Shown piece after piece: positions 39,745-45,841 of a stretch of 57,188 bases of DNA (position 1 is its first letter; each line of letters starts with the position of its first letter). The stretch comes from an uncultured SAR86 cluster bacterium (GTDB lineage Bacteria; Pseudomonadota; Gammaproteobacteria; Magnimaribacterales; D2472), in assembly GCA_902518715.1 (NCBI GenBank), contig CABYHU010000007.1:1-57188 (forward strand), read 5' to 3'. Position numbers and translations under genes: made by a program. The notes beneath the pieces were generated by a model. The model was given only the letters and a program-made list of their open reading frames with translations. It ran no database searches and was not told the DNA's origin.

Positions 39745-42101
39745 TTCTTGATTTCCTTATCGCCAAGTAAATCATCCACATTTTTAATAGACTTAGCAAC
39801 ACTTTCGATTTCATCTTGTTCTAAGTTTGATGATATTTCTATTTTTCCTCTAACTTTTCCATTAATCTGGACAACTAACTCAAATGTATCAGTGACCATT
39901 AAATCTTCATCAAAAGTCGGCCAGCTGTCTTCAATTTCTGAGCCATTCTCAAAAAAGTTATTCCATAGAGTTTCACATATATGCGGCGCTATCGGATAAA
40001 GCATTTGCAGGATTGATGCGATGAATTCATTGAGGCAGAATTGATCATTTTCAGATGATATTTCACCTTTAATCTGATCTGGCGTTGAATTTAAAAGTTC
40101 CATACATGCCGCAATTACTGTGTTAAAAGCATATCTATTTTCATAGTCATCAGTAACTTTTTTGATAGTTAAATGGATTTTTCTTCTAAAGTCTTTCTGA
40201 CTGTTATCTAACTCACCTTGTATCTTTACTTTTTTAAACTTTTTATCATGAGTAAAGCTCCAAAGTTTTTTTAAGAATCTAAAAGCTCCTTCTACAGCAG
40301 TTTCAGACCACTCTAAACTTTGCTCCGGAGGAGCGGTAAACATCATGTAAAGACGTATCGTGTCTGCACCATAATTATCAATATATTGTTGTGGGTCAAC
40401 TGTGTTGCCTTTTGACTTTGACATTTTAGACCCATCTTTAAGAACCATTCCTTGAGTAAGTAATTTTTTAAAAGGCTCATCACCCTCTACTAAGCCAATA
40501 TCTCTCATAGCCTTATGGAAAAACCTTGAATAAAGAAGATGTAAGATAGCATGTTCAATACCGCCAATATATAGATCAACTGGAAGCCAATATGCTGAAT
40601 TTTCATCTAAAGCTTTGTTGTTGTTATCTGCTGCTGTAAATCTTGCATAATACCAGGACGAATCTACAAAAGTATCAAATGTATCAACTTCTCTTGTTTC
40701 GTTGGAGCTAATTTCAAAGAAATCATTATTTTGACTGAGTGGTTTTGGAGACTCTCCATCTTTTACTTTTGGTAACTCAACAGGCAGATCTGTTTTCTCT
40801 AAAAAAATAGGCTCATCATTTTTATAGACTACTGGTATTGGACATCCCCAAAATCTTTGTCTGCTGACGCCCCAGTCACGTAATCGAAAATTCTCAATGC
40901 CCTTACCTATTTTTTCTTTTTCAAGGAAGCTATTAATATCTTGGATTGCATTTTCTGAAGTCAAACCATTAAATTTCTCAGAGTTAATGAGCTCACCTTT
41001 TTCAGAGGAGGGCAGTTCATCAGCTTTTATGACTTGCTTAATATCTATACTATATTTGAGAGCAAACTCATGATCTCTTTCGTCATGAGCTGGAACTCCC
41101 ATCACTACTCCTGTTCCATAATCCATTAGGACATAATTGGCAATCCAGACATCAAGATCAATTCCTGTAAAAGGATGTTTAACTTTTAAATTTGTTTTTA
41201 ATCCCAACTTATCAGCCTTAGCCATATCTGCTTCAGCCATCTTTGTTTCATTGCATTTTTTAATAAAGTCGTCTATCTCAGAATCTTGATTGGCTAAATT
41301 CTGAGAAATTGGGTGATTTGGTGATATCGCAAGGTATGTAACCCCATATATAGTATCAATTCTTGTTGTAAAAGCAGTTAGCTTCTCTCCACTAGAGAGA
41401 GAAAAACTTATTTCTGATCCAAAAGATTTTCCAATCCAATTTTTTTGCATTGACTTTACATTTTCAGGCCAATCAAGGTTTTCTATAGAAGTAAGAAGTT
41501 CATCAGCATAATCTGTAATTTTTAAAAACCATTGGTCAATTTCTCTTAACTCTACAGTTGCTCCCGATCTCCATCCTTTTCCATCTATAACTTGCTCATT
41601 TGCAAGCACTGTCTCATCAACTGGATCCCAATTAACTAGAGATTTCTTTCTATAAACTAGACCTTGCTTGTGGAGAAGACTAAAAATTTCCTGCTCCCAC
41701 TTATAATAGTTTGGATCACAGGTTTTAAGCTCTTTTGACCAGTCATAGCTAAATCCAAGTCTTTTGAGTTGTGATTTCATATTCTCAATGTTTTGTTCTG
41801 TCCAACTTTGTGGATCAACTTTATTTTGAATAGCTGCGTTCTCAGCAGGCAGTCCAAAGGCATCCCAGCCCATGGGCTGAAAGACATTGAATCCTCTCAT
41901 CCTTTTATATCTAGAAATAACGTCCCCAATTGTATAATTCCTCACATGTCCCATATGAAGTTTTCCAGAGGGATATGGGAACATAGACAAGCAATAATAT
42001 TTCTCTCTATCATCTGGAGCAGTCTTATATTTATTTGTATTTTCCCATTCAGATTGAATGCTAGATTCGATTTGTTCTGGATTATATTGTTCTTCAAGCA
42101 T
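39702..42101 (-). CDS. leuS: Leucyl-tRNA synthetase
   Basis: It charges tRNA-Leu. It is 799 residues, at the short end for bacterial LeuRS (E. coli 860). The HIGH motif appears as PSGKLHMGHVRNY (about 42-55), the CP1 editing domain has TRIDTIYGVTYLAISPNHP, and the KMSKS loop is intact (GSKMSKSKGN). The C-terminal domain has QINGKVRGKIE. It overlaps accC by 8 bases, so it appears to be in one operon with aroQ-accB-accC. Confidence 0.97.
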   Translation of the reverse strand: MLEEQYNPEQIESSIQSEWENTNKYKTAPDDREKYYCLSMFPYPSGKLHMGHVRNYTIGDVISRYKRMRGFNVFQPMGWDAFGLPAENAAIQNKVDPQSWTEQNIENMKSQLKRLGFSYDWSKELKTCDPNYYKWEQEIFSLLHKQGLVYRKKSLVNWDPVDETVLANEQVIDGKGWRSGATVELREIDQWFLKITDYADELLTSIENLDWPENVKSMQKNWIGKSFGSEISFSLSSGEKLTAFTTRIDTIYGVTYLAISPNHPISQNLANQDSEIDDFIKKCNETKMAEADMAKADKLGLKTNLKVKHPFTGIDLDVWIANYVLMDYGTGVVMGVPAHDERDHEFALKYSIDIKQVIKADELPSSEKGELINSEKFNGLTSENAIQDINSFLEKEKIGKGIENFRLRDWGVSRQRFWGCPIPVVYKNDEPIFLEKTDLPVELPKVKDGESPKPLSQNNDFFEISSNETREVDTFDTFVDSSWYYARFTAADNNNKALDENSAYWLPVDLYIGGIEHAILHLLYSRFFHKAMRDIGLVEGDEPFKKLLTQGMVLKDGSKMSKSKGNTVDPQQYIDNYGADTIRLYMMFTAPPEQSLEWSETAVEGAFRFLKKLWSFTHDKKFKKVKIQGELDNSQKDFRRKIHLTIKKVTDDYENRYAFNTVIAACMELLNSTPDQIKGEISSENDQFCLNEFIASILQMLYPIAPHICETLWNNFFENGSEIEDSWPTFDEDLMVTDTFELVVQINGKVRGKIEISSNLEQDEIESVAKSIKNVDDLLGDKEIKKCIYVKEKLINFVI

Positions 42102-43440
42102 TTTTTAGAAACTCATTTTCAAGATAGTTGATTGTGTGTTTATTTTCTATGAATTTCTCATCTTTAAGCATTTTTTGATGGAATTGATGTGTTGTATTTA
42201 TCCCCTCAATAAAAAACTCATCAAGAGCACTTAACATCCTTTTAATAGCTGATTTTCTGGAACCAGCAAGTGAAATTATTTTTGCTAACATTGAGTCATA
42301 AAATGGCGGTACCTCATAACCGTTATAAATGTGCGAGTCATATCGTATACCAAACCCTCCTGGAATGTGCATCCTAGTAATCTTTCCAGGATTTGGAATA
42401 AAATTCACAGAGTCTTCAGCATTAATTCTGCATTCAATCGCATGTCCTCTGAAATTTATATCACTTTGATTTAAAGTCATTGGCATGCCCAATGCAATTC
42501 TTAGCTGAGCTTTTACTAAATCAAATCCAGTAATCATTTCGGTTACAGGATGCTCTACTTGAATACGAGTATTCATTTCAAGGAAGTAAAAGCATTCATT
42601 TTCATAGAGAAATTCTAGGGTACCAACACCTTCATAATTTAGGTCTTTACAAAGATTTACACAGTTTTCTAAAACTTCATCGAGCTTTTCTTTATTTACA
42701 TCTCTCGCAGGAGCTTCCTCAATTAATTTCTGATGTCTTCTTTGAATTGAACAATCTCTGGTACCTAAATGAATAGCATTTCCTTTTCCATCTCCTACGA
42801 CTTGCACCTCAATATGTCTTGGATTTTCAATAAATTTCTCAAAATAAACGACATCACTGCCAAATCCATTAAGTGCTTCTTGCTTTGCAATTTGTACTGA
42901 ATTAATTAGCTCCTTTGAGCTCCTTACGATTTTCATTCCTCTTCCACCACCACCAGCTGTCGCTTTCACAATAAGTGGATATCCTATTTCCTCTGCTATT
43001 TTTAGAATTTCTTCCTCATTATTAGGCAGACCTTTGTCATAACCAGGTACTCCATCAATACCATATTTGGTAACGATAGATTTTGCAGTTATTTTGTCTC
43101 CCATTTGTCTTATAGTTTGTGAGCTTGGGCCAATGAATTTAAATCCACTAAGATTGCATTGCTCAGCAAAAGAGTGATCCTCAGCTAGAAATCCATACCC
43201 AGGATAAATTGCATCTGATCCAGTAACATCTGCTGCAGATAAAATAGTAGGCGCATCTAGATAGCTTTTAGTAGGATCAGCAGGGCCAACACAAACTGAC
43301 TCATCTGAAAATCTCAAACTTTTAAGTTCTTTGTCACCTTCAGAATAAATACATACGGTTTTTAAACCAAGTTCTTTGCATGCCCTTATGGCACGTAAAG
43401 AGATTTCTCCTCTATTGGCAATTAGAACTTTTTTTGACAT
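42094..43440 (-). CDS. accC: Acetyl-CoA carboxylase biotin carboxylase subunit
   Basis: It carboxylates BCCP-bound biotin with ATP and bicarbonate at the start of fatty acid synthesis. It is 448 residues (E. coli 449). ANRGEISLRAIRACKELG at the N-terminus, the glycine-rich ATP loop KATAGGGGRGMKIV, RDCSIQRRHQKLIEEAP and EMNTRIQVEHPVTE are all present. It starts at the base following the accB stop. Confidence 0.97.
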   Translation of the reverse strand: MSKKVLIANRGEISLRAIRACKELGLKTVCIYSEGDKELKSLRFSDESVCVGPADPTKSYLDAPTILSAADVTGSDAIYPGYGFLAEDHSFAEQCNLSGFKFIGPSSQTIRQMGDKITAKSIVTKYGIDGVPGYDKGLPNNEEEILKIAEEIGYPLIVKATAGGGGRGMKIVRSSKELINSVQIAKQEALNGFGSDVVYFEKFIENPRHIEVQVVGDGKGNAIHLGTRDCSIQRRHQKLIEEAPARDVNKEKLDEVLENCVNLCKDLNYEGVGTLEFLYENECFYFLEMNTRIQVEHPVTEMITGFDLVKAQLRIALGMPMTLNQSDINFRGHAIECRINAEDSVNFIPNPGKITRMHIPGGFGIRYDSHIYNGYEVPPFYDSMLAKIISLAGSRKSAIKRMLSALDEFFIEGINTTHQFHQKMLKDEKFIENKHTINYLENEFLKNA

Positions 43441-43878
43441 TTATTCTAGGGTGATTAAATCTTGAGAAAATTGAACTGGTTCACCATCTTCAACCTCAAT
43501 TGCAACTATTTTCCCGCTAAATTCAGATTTAATTTCATTCATCATTTTCATTGCTTCAACAATACAAACAATTTGTCCAGCATCAATCACATCTCCTACC
43601 TTTACATACGGATCCTTATCTGGTGCTGGCCTTCTGTAGAAAGTCCCAACAATTGGTGATGTAATAGTTTTTGACCCAGATATTGAGGTTTCTTTGGTTT
43701 CAGTATTAATAATAGTCTCGACTTTTCTGTCTGAAGTTGGCTTCTCGACCACAATATCATTTGAAGATTTTCTTGAAATCCTGACGGCTTCCTCGCCCTC
43801 AGTAACTTCAATTTCTGTAAGGTCTGATTCTTGAAGCATCTCGATTAATTTTTTAATTTTTCTTATATCCATACTCAT
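43441..43878 (-). CDS. accB: Biotin carboxyl carrier protein of acetyl-CoA carboxylase
   Basis: It carries biotin between biotin carboxylase and carboxyltransferase. It is 145 residues (E. coli 156). An N-terminal helix (DIRKIKKLIEMLQESDLTEIEV), a linker less Pro/Ala-rich than usual, then a lipoyl-like fold with Lys111 in EAMKMMNEI, the biotinylated lysine, and the PVGTFYR-type thumb region (SPIVGTFYRRPAPDKDPY). It follows aroQ by 5 bases and abuts accC, the common aroQ-accB-accC operon. Confidence 0.96.
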   Translation of the reverse strand: MSMDIRKIKKLIEMLQESDLTEIEVTEGEEAVRISRKSSNDIVVEKPTSDRKVETIINTETKETSISGSKTITSPIVGTFYRRPAPDKDPYVKVGDVIDAGQIVCIVEAMKMMNEIKSEFSGKIVAIEVEDGEPVQFSQDLITLE

Positions 43879-43883
43879 AAAAT

Positions 43884-44315
43884 TTAATTAGAATTAATTG
43901 CTTTTTCTAGGGCAAATTCATAGCCCTTAGTACCCATCCCACATACAACACCCTCTGCAATATCAGAAAAATATGATTTATGTCTAAATTCTTCTCTAGC
44001 AAATATATTTGAAATATGGATTTCATAAAACGGAATGCCAACACCGATAAGAGCATCTCGTATTGAAATGCTTGTATGTGTAAATGCGCCTGGGTTCATC
44101 AGAATCTTTGAAACGTTATCTTCCTTAGCCGCATGAATTTTTTCAACAATTTCATGTTCTGCATTACTTTGAAAGGATGTAAAAGAAACATCGTTCTCTT
44201 TGCAAATTACTGAAAGATTTTTCTCAATATCTTCTAAAGTATCGCTCCCATAAATAGAGTTTTCTCTACTACCTAGAAGATTTAAGTTAGGCCCATTTAT
44301 TAAAAGGATTTCCAT
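43884..44315 (-). CDS. aroQ: 3-Dehydroquinate dehydratase, type II
   Basis: It dehydrates 3-dehydroquinate, step three of the shikimate pathway. The 143-residue type II protein starts INGPNLNLLGSRE; the catalytic tyrosine is in SIYGSDTL, the histidine in NPGAFTHTSIS and EIHISNI, and the closing arginine loop is FAREEFRHKSY. Length and motifs are standard. It leads accB-accC and lies 50 bases after a truncated dsbD-like gene. Confidence 0.95.
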   Translation of the reverse strand: MEILLINGPNLNLLGSRENSIYGSDTLEDIEKNLSVICKENDVSFTSFQSNAEHEIVEKIHAAKEDNVSKILMNPGAFTHTSISIRDALIGVGIPFYEIHISNIFAREEFRHKSYFSDIAEGVVCGMGTKGYEFALEKAINSN

Positions 44316-44365: not shown

Positions 44366-44815
44366 TTATAAAGCTGATAACTTGACTTTTATTGGTGTAT
44401 AACAGAACCTTTTTTCAGCACATCCTTGAAAGATTACCTCATAGTTCTTCAGATTTCGTTCTGTTTGGTCTGATATCTTTAAAGCAAGGTTATTCCTAAA
44501 TATTACAGTTTCTCCTAGGAATTCATCTTTATGGACAATTGGATCACCAATTAGATCAAATGCAATCGATTGGTCTTTATTAATAACTTTTATTGAGTTT
44601 TGATATAAATAATACGTTTTTTCTATCTTCCAATTTAGAAAAAGAGAATCTTCAATTTTAGTGACTGTCATTTTAAAAGCATCTTTGGGATCCAGGATCT
44701 CATTACCTAGGACTATTTGGTTTGAAGCTAAAACATTATTTGAAAACATACATATAAAGATTGCGTATAATGAGAGCAGTGATTTTTTAGTACGCAACAG
44801 AACAAAATGAAACAT
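44366..44815 (-). CDS. Orphan DsbD N-terminal (alpha) redox domain protein
   Basis: In full DsbD this domain takes electrons from the membrane domain and reduces periplasmic partners. The 149-residue protein has a signal peptide (about 8-30, NVLA-SNQ), the YYLYQNSIKV and FLGETVIFRNNL strands and FQGCAEKRFCYTP with Cys132 and Cys138, the C-x5-C redox pair spaced as in E. coli DsbD. It then stops: the eight-helix membrane domain and C-terminal thioredoxin domain are absent, and only 50 bases remain before aroQ. A TTG start at 44797 would give a better signal peptide and remove the overlap with the divergent gene. Confidence 0.8.
   Translation of the reverse strand: MFHFVLLRTKKSLLSLYAIFICMFSNNVLASNQIVLGNEILDPKDAFKMTVTKIEDSLFLNWKIEKTYYLYQNSIKVINKDQSIAFDLIGDPIVHKDEFLGETVIFRNNLALKISDQTERNLKNYEVIFQGCAEKRFCYTPIKVKLSAL
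44766..44771 (+). promoter_or_regulatory. Candidate -10 box for the hydrolase-ABC-ilvD-hemB-trxA operon
   Basis: TATAAT preceded by TGCG, an almost extended -10, lies 36 bases before the ATG at 44807, inside the opposing dsbD-like gene. No good -35 lies at normal spacing (TTGAAA is 20 bases away). Confidence 0.3.
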
Positions 44816-45841
44816 TTTTTAATTAACTTTTTCTTAAATATTTTCTTTATTTTACCTAATTGGGCTTTAAAAGTACTAACACTTAGAAAGGAGATTACTT
44901 ATAAAAATGAGGTTTTTGATTATCAATCCATGATTTATATTTCTTTAATATCTTGGTTCATTACAAAATTTGGATTTGCCTTAGACATGTCTGAGTTTTC
45001 CGATGAAATGCGTAAAAAAATGGCGAACTTAAGAATAAAAATAAATAATAACATTGCTCCTAAAAAAATAATTCATAAAGAAGATCTTATTATTGAGCAA
45101 AAGAATAACTTAGTTCTAAGACAGTATTCGCTTGACTCACAAATTTCTGATAAATGTGTTTTGTTCTTTCATGGAGGAGGTTATGCAATATCCGATATAG
45201 ATGTATATGACCCAGTTGTATCTTTTATGTGTGAAGAACTAAATACTAAAATTTTTTCATTGGAGTATAGCCTTTCTCCGGAGAATAAATTTCCTCAAGC
45301 TCTTAAGGAAGCCAACATTGCCTTTGAGTGGTTGAGAAGCCATGGATACAACAAAGAACAAATAATTATCTGTGGTGATAGTGCTGGAGGTCACTTAGCT
45401 GCATCATTATTACATGACCGAAGTTCAAAAGGTAAAGAACTTCCCTATTTGCAGGTCTTAATTTATCCAATGGTATCTCCATCATTAGACTTTCCATCTC
45501 TAGAGAGACTTGGAGAGAATTTCTTACTGACAAGGGAGCAGATGAAGTGGTTCTGGCATTATTTTAGGGCAGAAGAAGCAAATAATTTAGATTCAAGATT
45601 TGATCTGCTAAAAATTGATAATAATAATAAATTTAATACCAAAACAGTTATAATTACCGCCGGTTTTGATCCGCTATGTGATGAAGCAGAAGCATATGCA
45701 GCAAAATTGAATGACATGGGAAAAAATGTGAAGCAAATTCATTATCCTAGTTTATTCCATAGCTTCATCAATATAACTAGATTAAAGACTGCTAAATTAG
45801 CAACAATTGATATTTTTAGGGAAATAAAAAGAAACTTATGA
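44807..45841 (+). CDS. Alpha/beta hydrolase of the hormone-sensitive-lipase family
   Basis: A 344-residue esterase/lipase-type hydrolase. The oxyanion motif HGGG is at 122-125, nucleophile Ser192 lies in GDSAGG, Asp288 in GFDPLCDEA, and His318 in LFHSF. An N-terminal hydrophobic stretch (about 4-20) may anchor it to the membrane or act as an uncleaved signal. The substrate is unknown. It overlaps the ABC ATPase gene by 4 bases, so it is translationally coupled to a peptide-type transporter. Confidence 0.87.
   Translation: MKHFLINFFLNIFFILPNWALKVLTLRKEITYKNEVFDYQSMIYISLISWFITKFGFALDMSEFSDEMRKKMANLRIKINNNIAPKKIIHKEDLIIEQKNNLVLRQYSLDSQISDKCVLFFHGGGYAISDIDVYDPVVSFMCEELNTKIFSLEYSLSPENKFPQALKEANIAFEWLRSHGYNKEQIIICGDSAGGHLAASLLHDRSSKGKELPYLQVLIYPMVSPSLDFPSLERLGENFLLTREQMKWFWHYFRAEEANNLDSRFDLLKIDNNNKFNTKTVIITAGFDPLCDEAEAYAAKLNDMGKNVKQIHYPSLFHSFINITRLKTAKLATIDIFREIKRNL

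Follow-up and report, generated by a model that had tools for sequence, protein, structure and literature searches.

DsbD is the textbook case of electrons hopping between the domains of a single membrane protein. SAR86 bacteria are among the most abundant and poorly cultivated bacteria of the surface ocean, and at one locus of a SAR86-cluster genome the gene for the N-terminal redox domain of DsbD (nDsbD, the alpha domain) stands by itself upstream of aroQ, accB and accC. This raises the question of how the short gene arose, whether selection keeps it and which membrane protein could supply its product with electrons. The window, i.e. the whole stretch of 57,188 nucleotides that was analysed, comes from a genome whose close relatives include the SAR86 single-cell genomes AG-893-L08, AG-359-G23 and AG-461-E16. 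The short gene and its surroundings are as follows:

44366-44815, minus strand: free-standing DsbD alpha (N-terminal) domain of 149 aa, supported by its ORF and by profile and structural matches; signal peptide approximately residues 1-31, domain approximately residues 37-149, cap loop D97-G101, redox pair C132/C138
44316-44365, no strand: gap of 50 bases between the nDsbD stop and the aroQ start, the site of the DsbD transmembrane (TM) and gamma domains in other gammaproteobacteria
43884-44315, minus strand: aroQ (type II dehydroquinase), the conserved downstream neighbour
43441-43878, minus strand: accB, assigned by synteny and similarity to other loci
42094-43440, minus strand: accC
44807-45841, plus strand: alpha/beta hydrolase (Abhydrolase_3), the divergent neighbour, whose start codon lies within the first nDsbD codons

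The first residues of the protein, MFHFVLLRTKKSLLSLYAIFICMFSNNVLAS, read as an export signal, and on the basis of this signal sequence it is predicted to be exported and periplasmic. Residues 38-143 match the Pfam DsbD_N profile (E 5.1e-18; 65.7 bits for a curated cut-off of 25), and phmmer aligned residues 44-142 without gaps to the nDsbD of Escherichia coli (PDB 1l6p; E 4e-13). Since this alignment is gap-free, the numbering offset is constant (29): Y71, D97, F99, G101, C132 and C138 correspond to Y42, D68, F70, G72, C103 and C109 of E. coli, and G131 corresponds to G102. The Cys-x5-Cys motif is intact and the cap loop reads D97-E-F99-L-G101. An AlphaFold2 model, with pLDDT mostly above 90 across the domain, gave 18 structural matches at E<=0.001, all of them nDsbD (best E 2.7e-9), and the nearest solved relatives are the nDsbD of E. 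coli and Neisseria meningitidis (PDB 1l6p, 3pfu, 1vrs, 6dps). The SAR86 protein has in common with these the sequence family, the fold, the Cys-x5-Cys motif, the D-x-F-x-G cap loop and the export signal. However, in E. coli and Neisseria nDsbD is one domain of a membrane protein with TM and gamma domains, whereas in SAR86 it is a separate protein: only 11 residues follow C138, neither a DsbD_TM domain nor a C-terminal thioredoxin (gamma) domain is present in the same polypeptide, and the score against the three-domain DsbD profile (NCBIfam NF001419) is 88.8 bits for a cut-off of 330. The initial annotation, made from the letters of the window, had described an intact domain, with signal peptide and both cysteines, that ends right after the Cys-x5-Cys motif and its closing strand; the profile match, the 1l6p alignment and the C132/C138 pair agree with this description.

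It had also been proposed that the membrane and thioredoxin domains are deleted and not shifted out of frame. The distance to aroQ is exactly the 50 bases claimed, which is too small for any DsbD_TM or gamma remnant, no DsbD_TM match was found near the locus, and the relatives that were read have an open frame. Together, these observations exclude a hidden frameshift. A sequencing or assembly error that conceals a longer dsbD is so improbable that we rejected it, as dozens of assemblies made independently from single cells and metagenomes show the same structure. At the other end of the gene, the starts of nDsbD and of the hydrolase overlap by 9 bases (44807-44815), an arrangement that is kept within the genus; a divergent promoter region of the classical kind would not fit between the two genes.

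Comparison of the locus in relatives revealed that the short form is conserved. It is found in 61 of the 68 genomes of SAR86 families f1-f3 that are at least about 85% complete. Five of the seven exceptions also lack aroQ and in a sixth the contig ends at aroQ, indicating that these six are assembly gaps; the seventh is G078. The aroQ and nDsbD genes are adjacent at all 45 loci read, which comprise 35 loci from the same family (10 genera), nine from two further families and L114. The 35 loci keep the order leuS-accC-accB-aroQ-nDsbD facing abh3-ABC-ilvD-hemB, with one contig stopping just past nDsbD and five loci having accC missing and accB shortened. At the latter (L069, L071, L073, L074 and L075), accC was undetected and the accB match, located between leuS and aroQ, covers only ~40-55 aa, which suggests that part of acetyl-CoA carboxylase has been lost or relocated. 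The truncation is thus not specific to the genome of the window but kept across most of SAR86. A fourth SAR86 family, f4 (8 genomes), has no short gene. In the seven f4 genomes with aroQ (L116-L122), aroQ has hemB as its immediate neighbour and lacks the block nDsbD-abh3-ABC-ilvD beside it. When other gammaproteobacteria are taken as outgroup, the tree built from aroQ, accB, accC and hemB places f4 beside f1, and f2 and f3 together; given this position, the absence of nDsbD in f4 is most simply a loss.

The short gene was expected to be under selection, and this expectation was confirmed. Pairwise dN/dS of nDsbD within the genus is 0.17-0.35 in informative pairs, well away from 1, and neither a frameshift nor a premature stop was found in the pairs within the genus. 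The ratio pN/pS is 0.12 in the cap loop and catalytic segment versus 0.37 in the rest of the domain. Moreover, Y71, D97, G101, G131, C132 and C138 are invariant in 41 diverse SAR86 sequences, most of them at 20-35% identity to the window protein, and the capping position 99 is F or Y in 41/41. In E. coli, the cap loop D68-G72 with F70 and the two cysteines form the active site region; the loop guards these cysteines, when reduced, against oxidation in the periplasm and has to open to admit partners (PMC7347389). The neighbouring aroQ, accB and accC have dN/dS values mostly of 0.03-0.13, so nDsbD evolves faster than they do. Values of ~1.0-1.2 obtained for the ABC gene against L051 are an artefact of a single-hit match on the wrong half of a two-domain protein. 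A recent deletion or a pseudogene is rejected by the conservation and the dN/dS values.

An ancestral position of dsbD before aroQ-accBC in gammaproteobacteria had been put forward, and it is confirmed by what is seen in other genomes: full-length dsbD lies directly upstream of aroQ-accB-accC, on the same strand, at 9 of 20 non-SAR86 gammaproteobacterial loci. Among the rest of the 20, dsbD is followed by accB-accC at one locus, where aroQ was not detected, and at another aroQ comes only after ~5 kb. The SAR86 short gene occupies the same position upstream of aroQ-accB-accC as dsbD does in other gammaproteobacteria. A tree built from alpha domains unites the 44 short proteins of SAR86 in one group (SH-aLRT 98), which falls on the canonical DsbD side, apart from the alpha domains of ScsB. 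Synteny, tree and domain content show that the short gene is the retained 5' part of an ancestral dsbD, and the simplest history is that the beta and gamma domains were lost in a single deletion that preceded the SAR86 radiation. An origin from the alpha domain of ScsB was rejected by the alpha-domain tree and the cysteine spacing. We also observed a tandem pair of alpha domains in DsbD of many gammaproteobacteria (L160, L163, L164, L165, L167, L168, L169, L171, L176 and L177).

The SAR86 form is a recurrent variant of a known system. In two other gammaproteobacterial families, apparently lineages separate from SAR86 (f53 and f124), DsbD is likewise cut to the alpha domain at the same locus, and there nDsbD and aroQ are separated by a tlpA-like redoxin gene. 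One of these families (3 genomes, 2 genera) has an nDsbD of ~220 aa between cutA and the tlpA-like gene; both nDsbD and tlpA-like lie upstream of aroQ, and accB-accC then follow in the two longer contigs. The second has the order nDsbD, tlpA-like, aroQ, accB, accC. The loci with nDsbD, tlpA-like and aroQ in these two families are:

L199, 4348-5555
L200, 4138-5372
L201, 2079-3319
L207, 3625-5349

The aroQ/accB/accC/hemB tree, which covered the first of the two families, places it outside SAR86, and its truncation is therefore separate. In surveys of 383 and 369 gammaproteobacterial genomes, the best ~150 matches were mostly full-length proteins. Two further proteins were noted. A stand-alone DsbD_N protein of 156 aa with a lipoprotein-like signal (LSACSS) is encoded at L202:4575-5045; the same genome has a long copy as well, and the neighbours of the short gene, as judged by eye, appear to be type VI secretion genes. 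At L203:5662-6489, a DsbD_N protein of 275 aa with two hydrophobic segments at its end follows a cutA-like gene; from its sequence, it has the look of a DsbD that has lost an internal part.

A free alpha domain had been predicted to need a separate CcdA- or ScsB-like membrane protein as electron donor. The host genome encodes exactly one protein with DsbD_TM, and it is of the ScsB type, so a single candidate is indeed present; the electron route itself is one that we infer. This protein of 650 aa, encoded on another contig (C3), is the second DsbD_N protein of the genome and matches DsbD_N, DsbD_TM and Thioredoxin_7. It indicates that trans-membrane reducing capacity has not been lost. Its alpha part matches ScsB of Proteus mirabilis (PDB 6c29; E 2.5e-12), and SAR86 has one such protein with alpha, TM and gamma domains. 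The ScsB alpha domain belongs to a separate clade and has Cys-x3-Cys, whereas the free SAR86 domain has Cys-x5-Cys. All 16 ScsB-type copies read keep the alpha Cys-x3-Cys, two TM cysteines and the gamma WCITC motif. Among 57 genomes of the family, 49 have exactly one near-complete DsbD_TM match, three have fragments and five have none; the ScsB-type protein is also present in each of the four genomes that consist of a single contig and have the short gene (G048, G052, G108 and G139). No canonical full-length DsbD was found in SAR86, and such a protein elsewhere in the host genome was rejected as a candidate, the other DsbD_N protein being the ScsB-type one. In several bacteria, ScsC is maintained in its reduced form by ScsB (PMC8900818). 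At the one ScsB-type locus whose ORFs were inspected, no scsC-like neighbour was recognised by eye.

By the most likely mechanism, electrons would pass from cytoplasmic thioredoxin to the membrane domain of ScsB, and from the ScsB gamma domain to the C132-C138 disulfide of free nDsbD once the cap loop opens. The reduced domain would then diffuse to thioredoxin-fold partners, e.g. CcmG in cytochrome c maturation or the disulfide isomerase DsbC. In this way a canonical alpha domain would be the detachable adaptor of another electron pump in the membrane. In E. coli, nDsbD passes electrons to DsbC, CcmG and DsbG (PMC7347389). For the nDsbD of N. meningitidis, the reaction with its partner has rate constants of around 1e5-1e6 per M per s (PMC6210582). 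CcmG is present in 76/76 SAR86 genomes and DsbC_N in 72/76, and the host genome has ccmB, C, E, F, G and H with a ccmA-like ABC gene. Co-occurrence of nDsbD with CcmG or DsbC was uninformative as a discriminating test, since nearly all genomes have both. We infer both steps, from ScsB to the free domain and from there to CcmG and DsbC; the lack of linkage between the ScsB-type gene and nDsbD in the genome counts against this route. The joint reading, in which a remnant of ancestral dsbD was freed before the SAR86 radiation, is reduced by ScsB and serves CcmG and DsbC, has in our estimate a probability of about 0.55.

The loss in f4 also bears on other accounts of what the free domain does. This family keeps ScsB, CcmG and mostly DsbC, none of which therefore strictly depends on the free domain: ScsB's own alpha domain may suffice and may serve all partners, or the true partner of nDsbD may be another protein. 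The free domain would in the latter case be a functional periplasmic reductant with a dedicated partner, such as a TlpA-like thioredoxin or another periplasmic thiol protein, while the ScsB alpha domain serves CcmG and DsbC. Besides the f4 pattern, the tlpA-like gene that adjoins the free domain in the two other truncated families and the alpha Cys-x3-Cys kept in every ScsB sequence read argue for such a partner. However, SAR86 has no tlpA-like gene between nDsbD and aroQ, and no specific partner gene was identified as present in f1-f3 and absent from f4. We consider this explanation rather unlikely.

The same loss, together with a dN/dS above that of the neighbouring genes, would suit a dsbD relic that is by now weakly constrained and has no important function. 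Yet the gene is intact in three families and kept in streamlined genomes of about 1-1.8 Mb, its catalytic residues are invariant among sequences of such low identity, and constraint is strongest exactly at the catalytic and cap-loop segments; a relic is thus improbable. We give still less credit to a redox buffer or thiol-trapping chaperone that receives no electrons from a membrane pump. Sequence does not fix which way the electrons flow, which leaves room for it, but a conserved cap loop, which in E. coli shields the reduced cysteines (PMC7347389), fits a reductant.

The ScsB-driven reading extends to a broader proposal, namely that the alpha domain of DsbD has become a soluble adaptor driven by a non-cognate pump, of the ScsB type in SAR86, in at least three gammaproteobacterial lineages, SAR86 among them. 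We put this forward tentatively, at slightly less than even odds. A literature search with partial journal coverage found no paper describing a stand-alone nDsbD, which is weak evidence of novelty. If the adaptor reading is true, periplasmic electron delivery would be modular and not intramolecular. The long conservation of a natural split form suggests an alpha domain that is able to function in trans. From such a form one would expect cross-talk between pumps of the ScsB type and adaptors of the DsbD type, and it offers a testable view of how thiols are reduced in the SAR86 periplasm.
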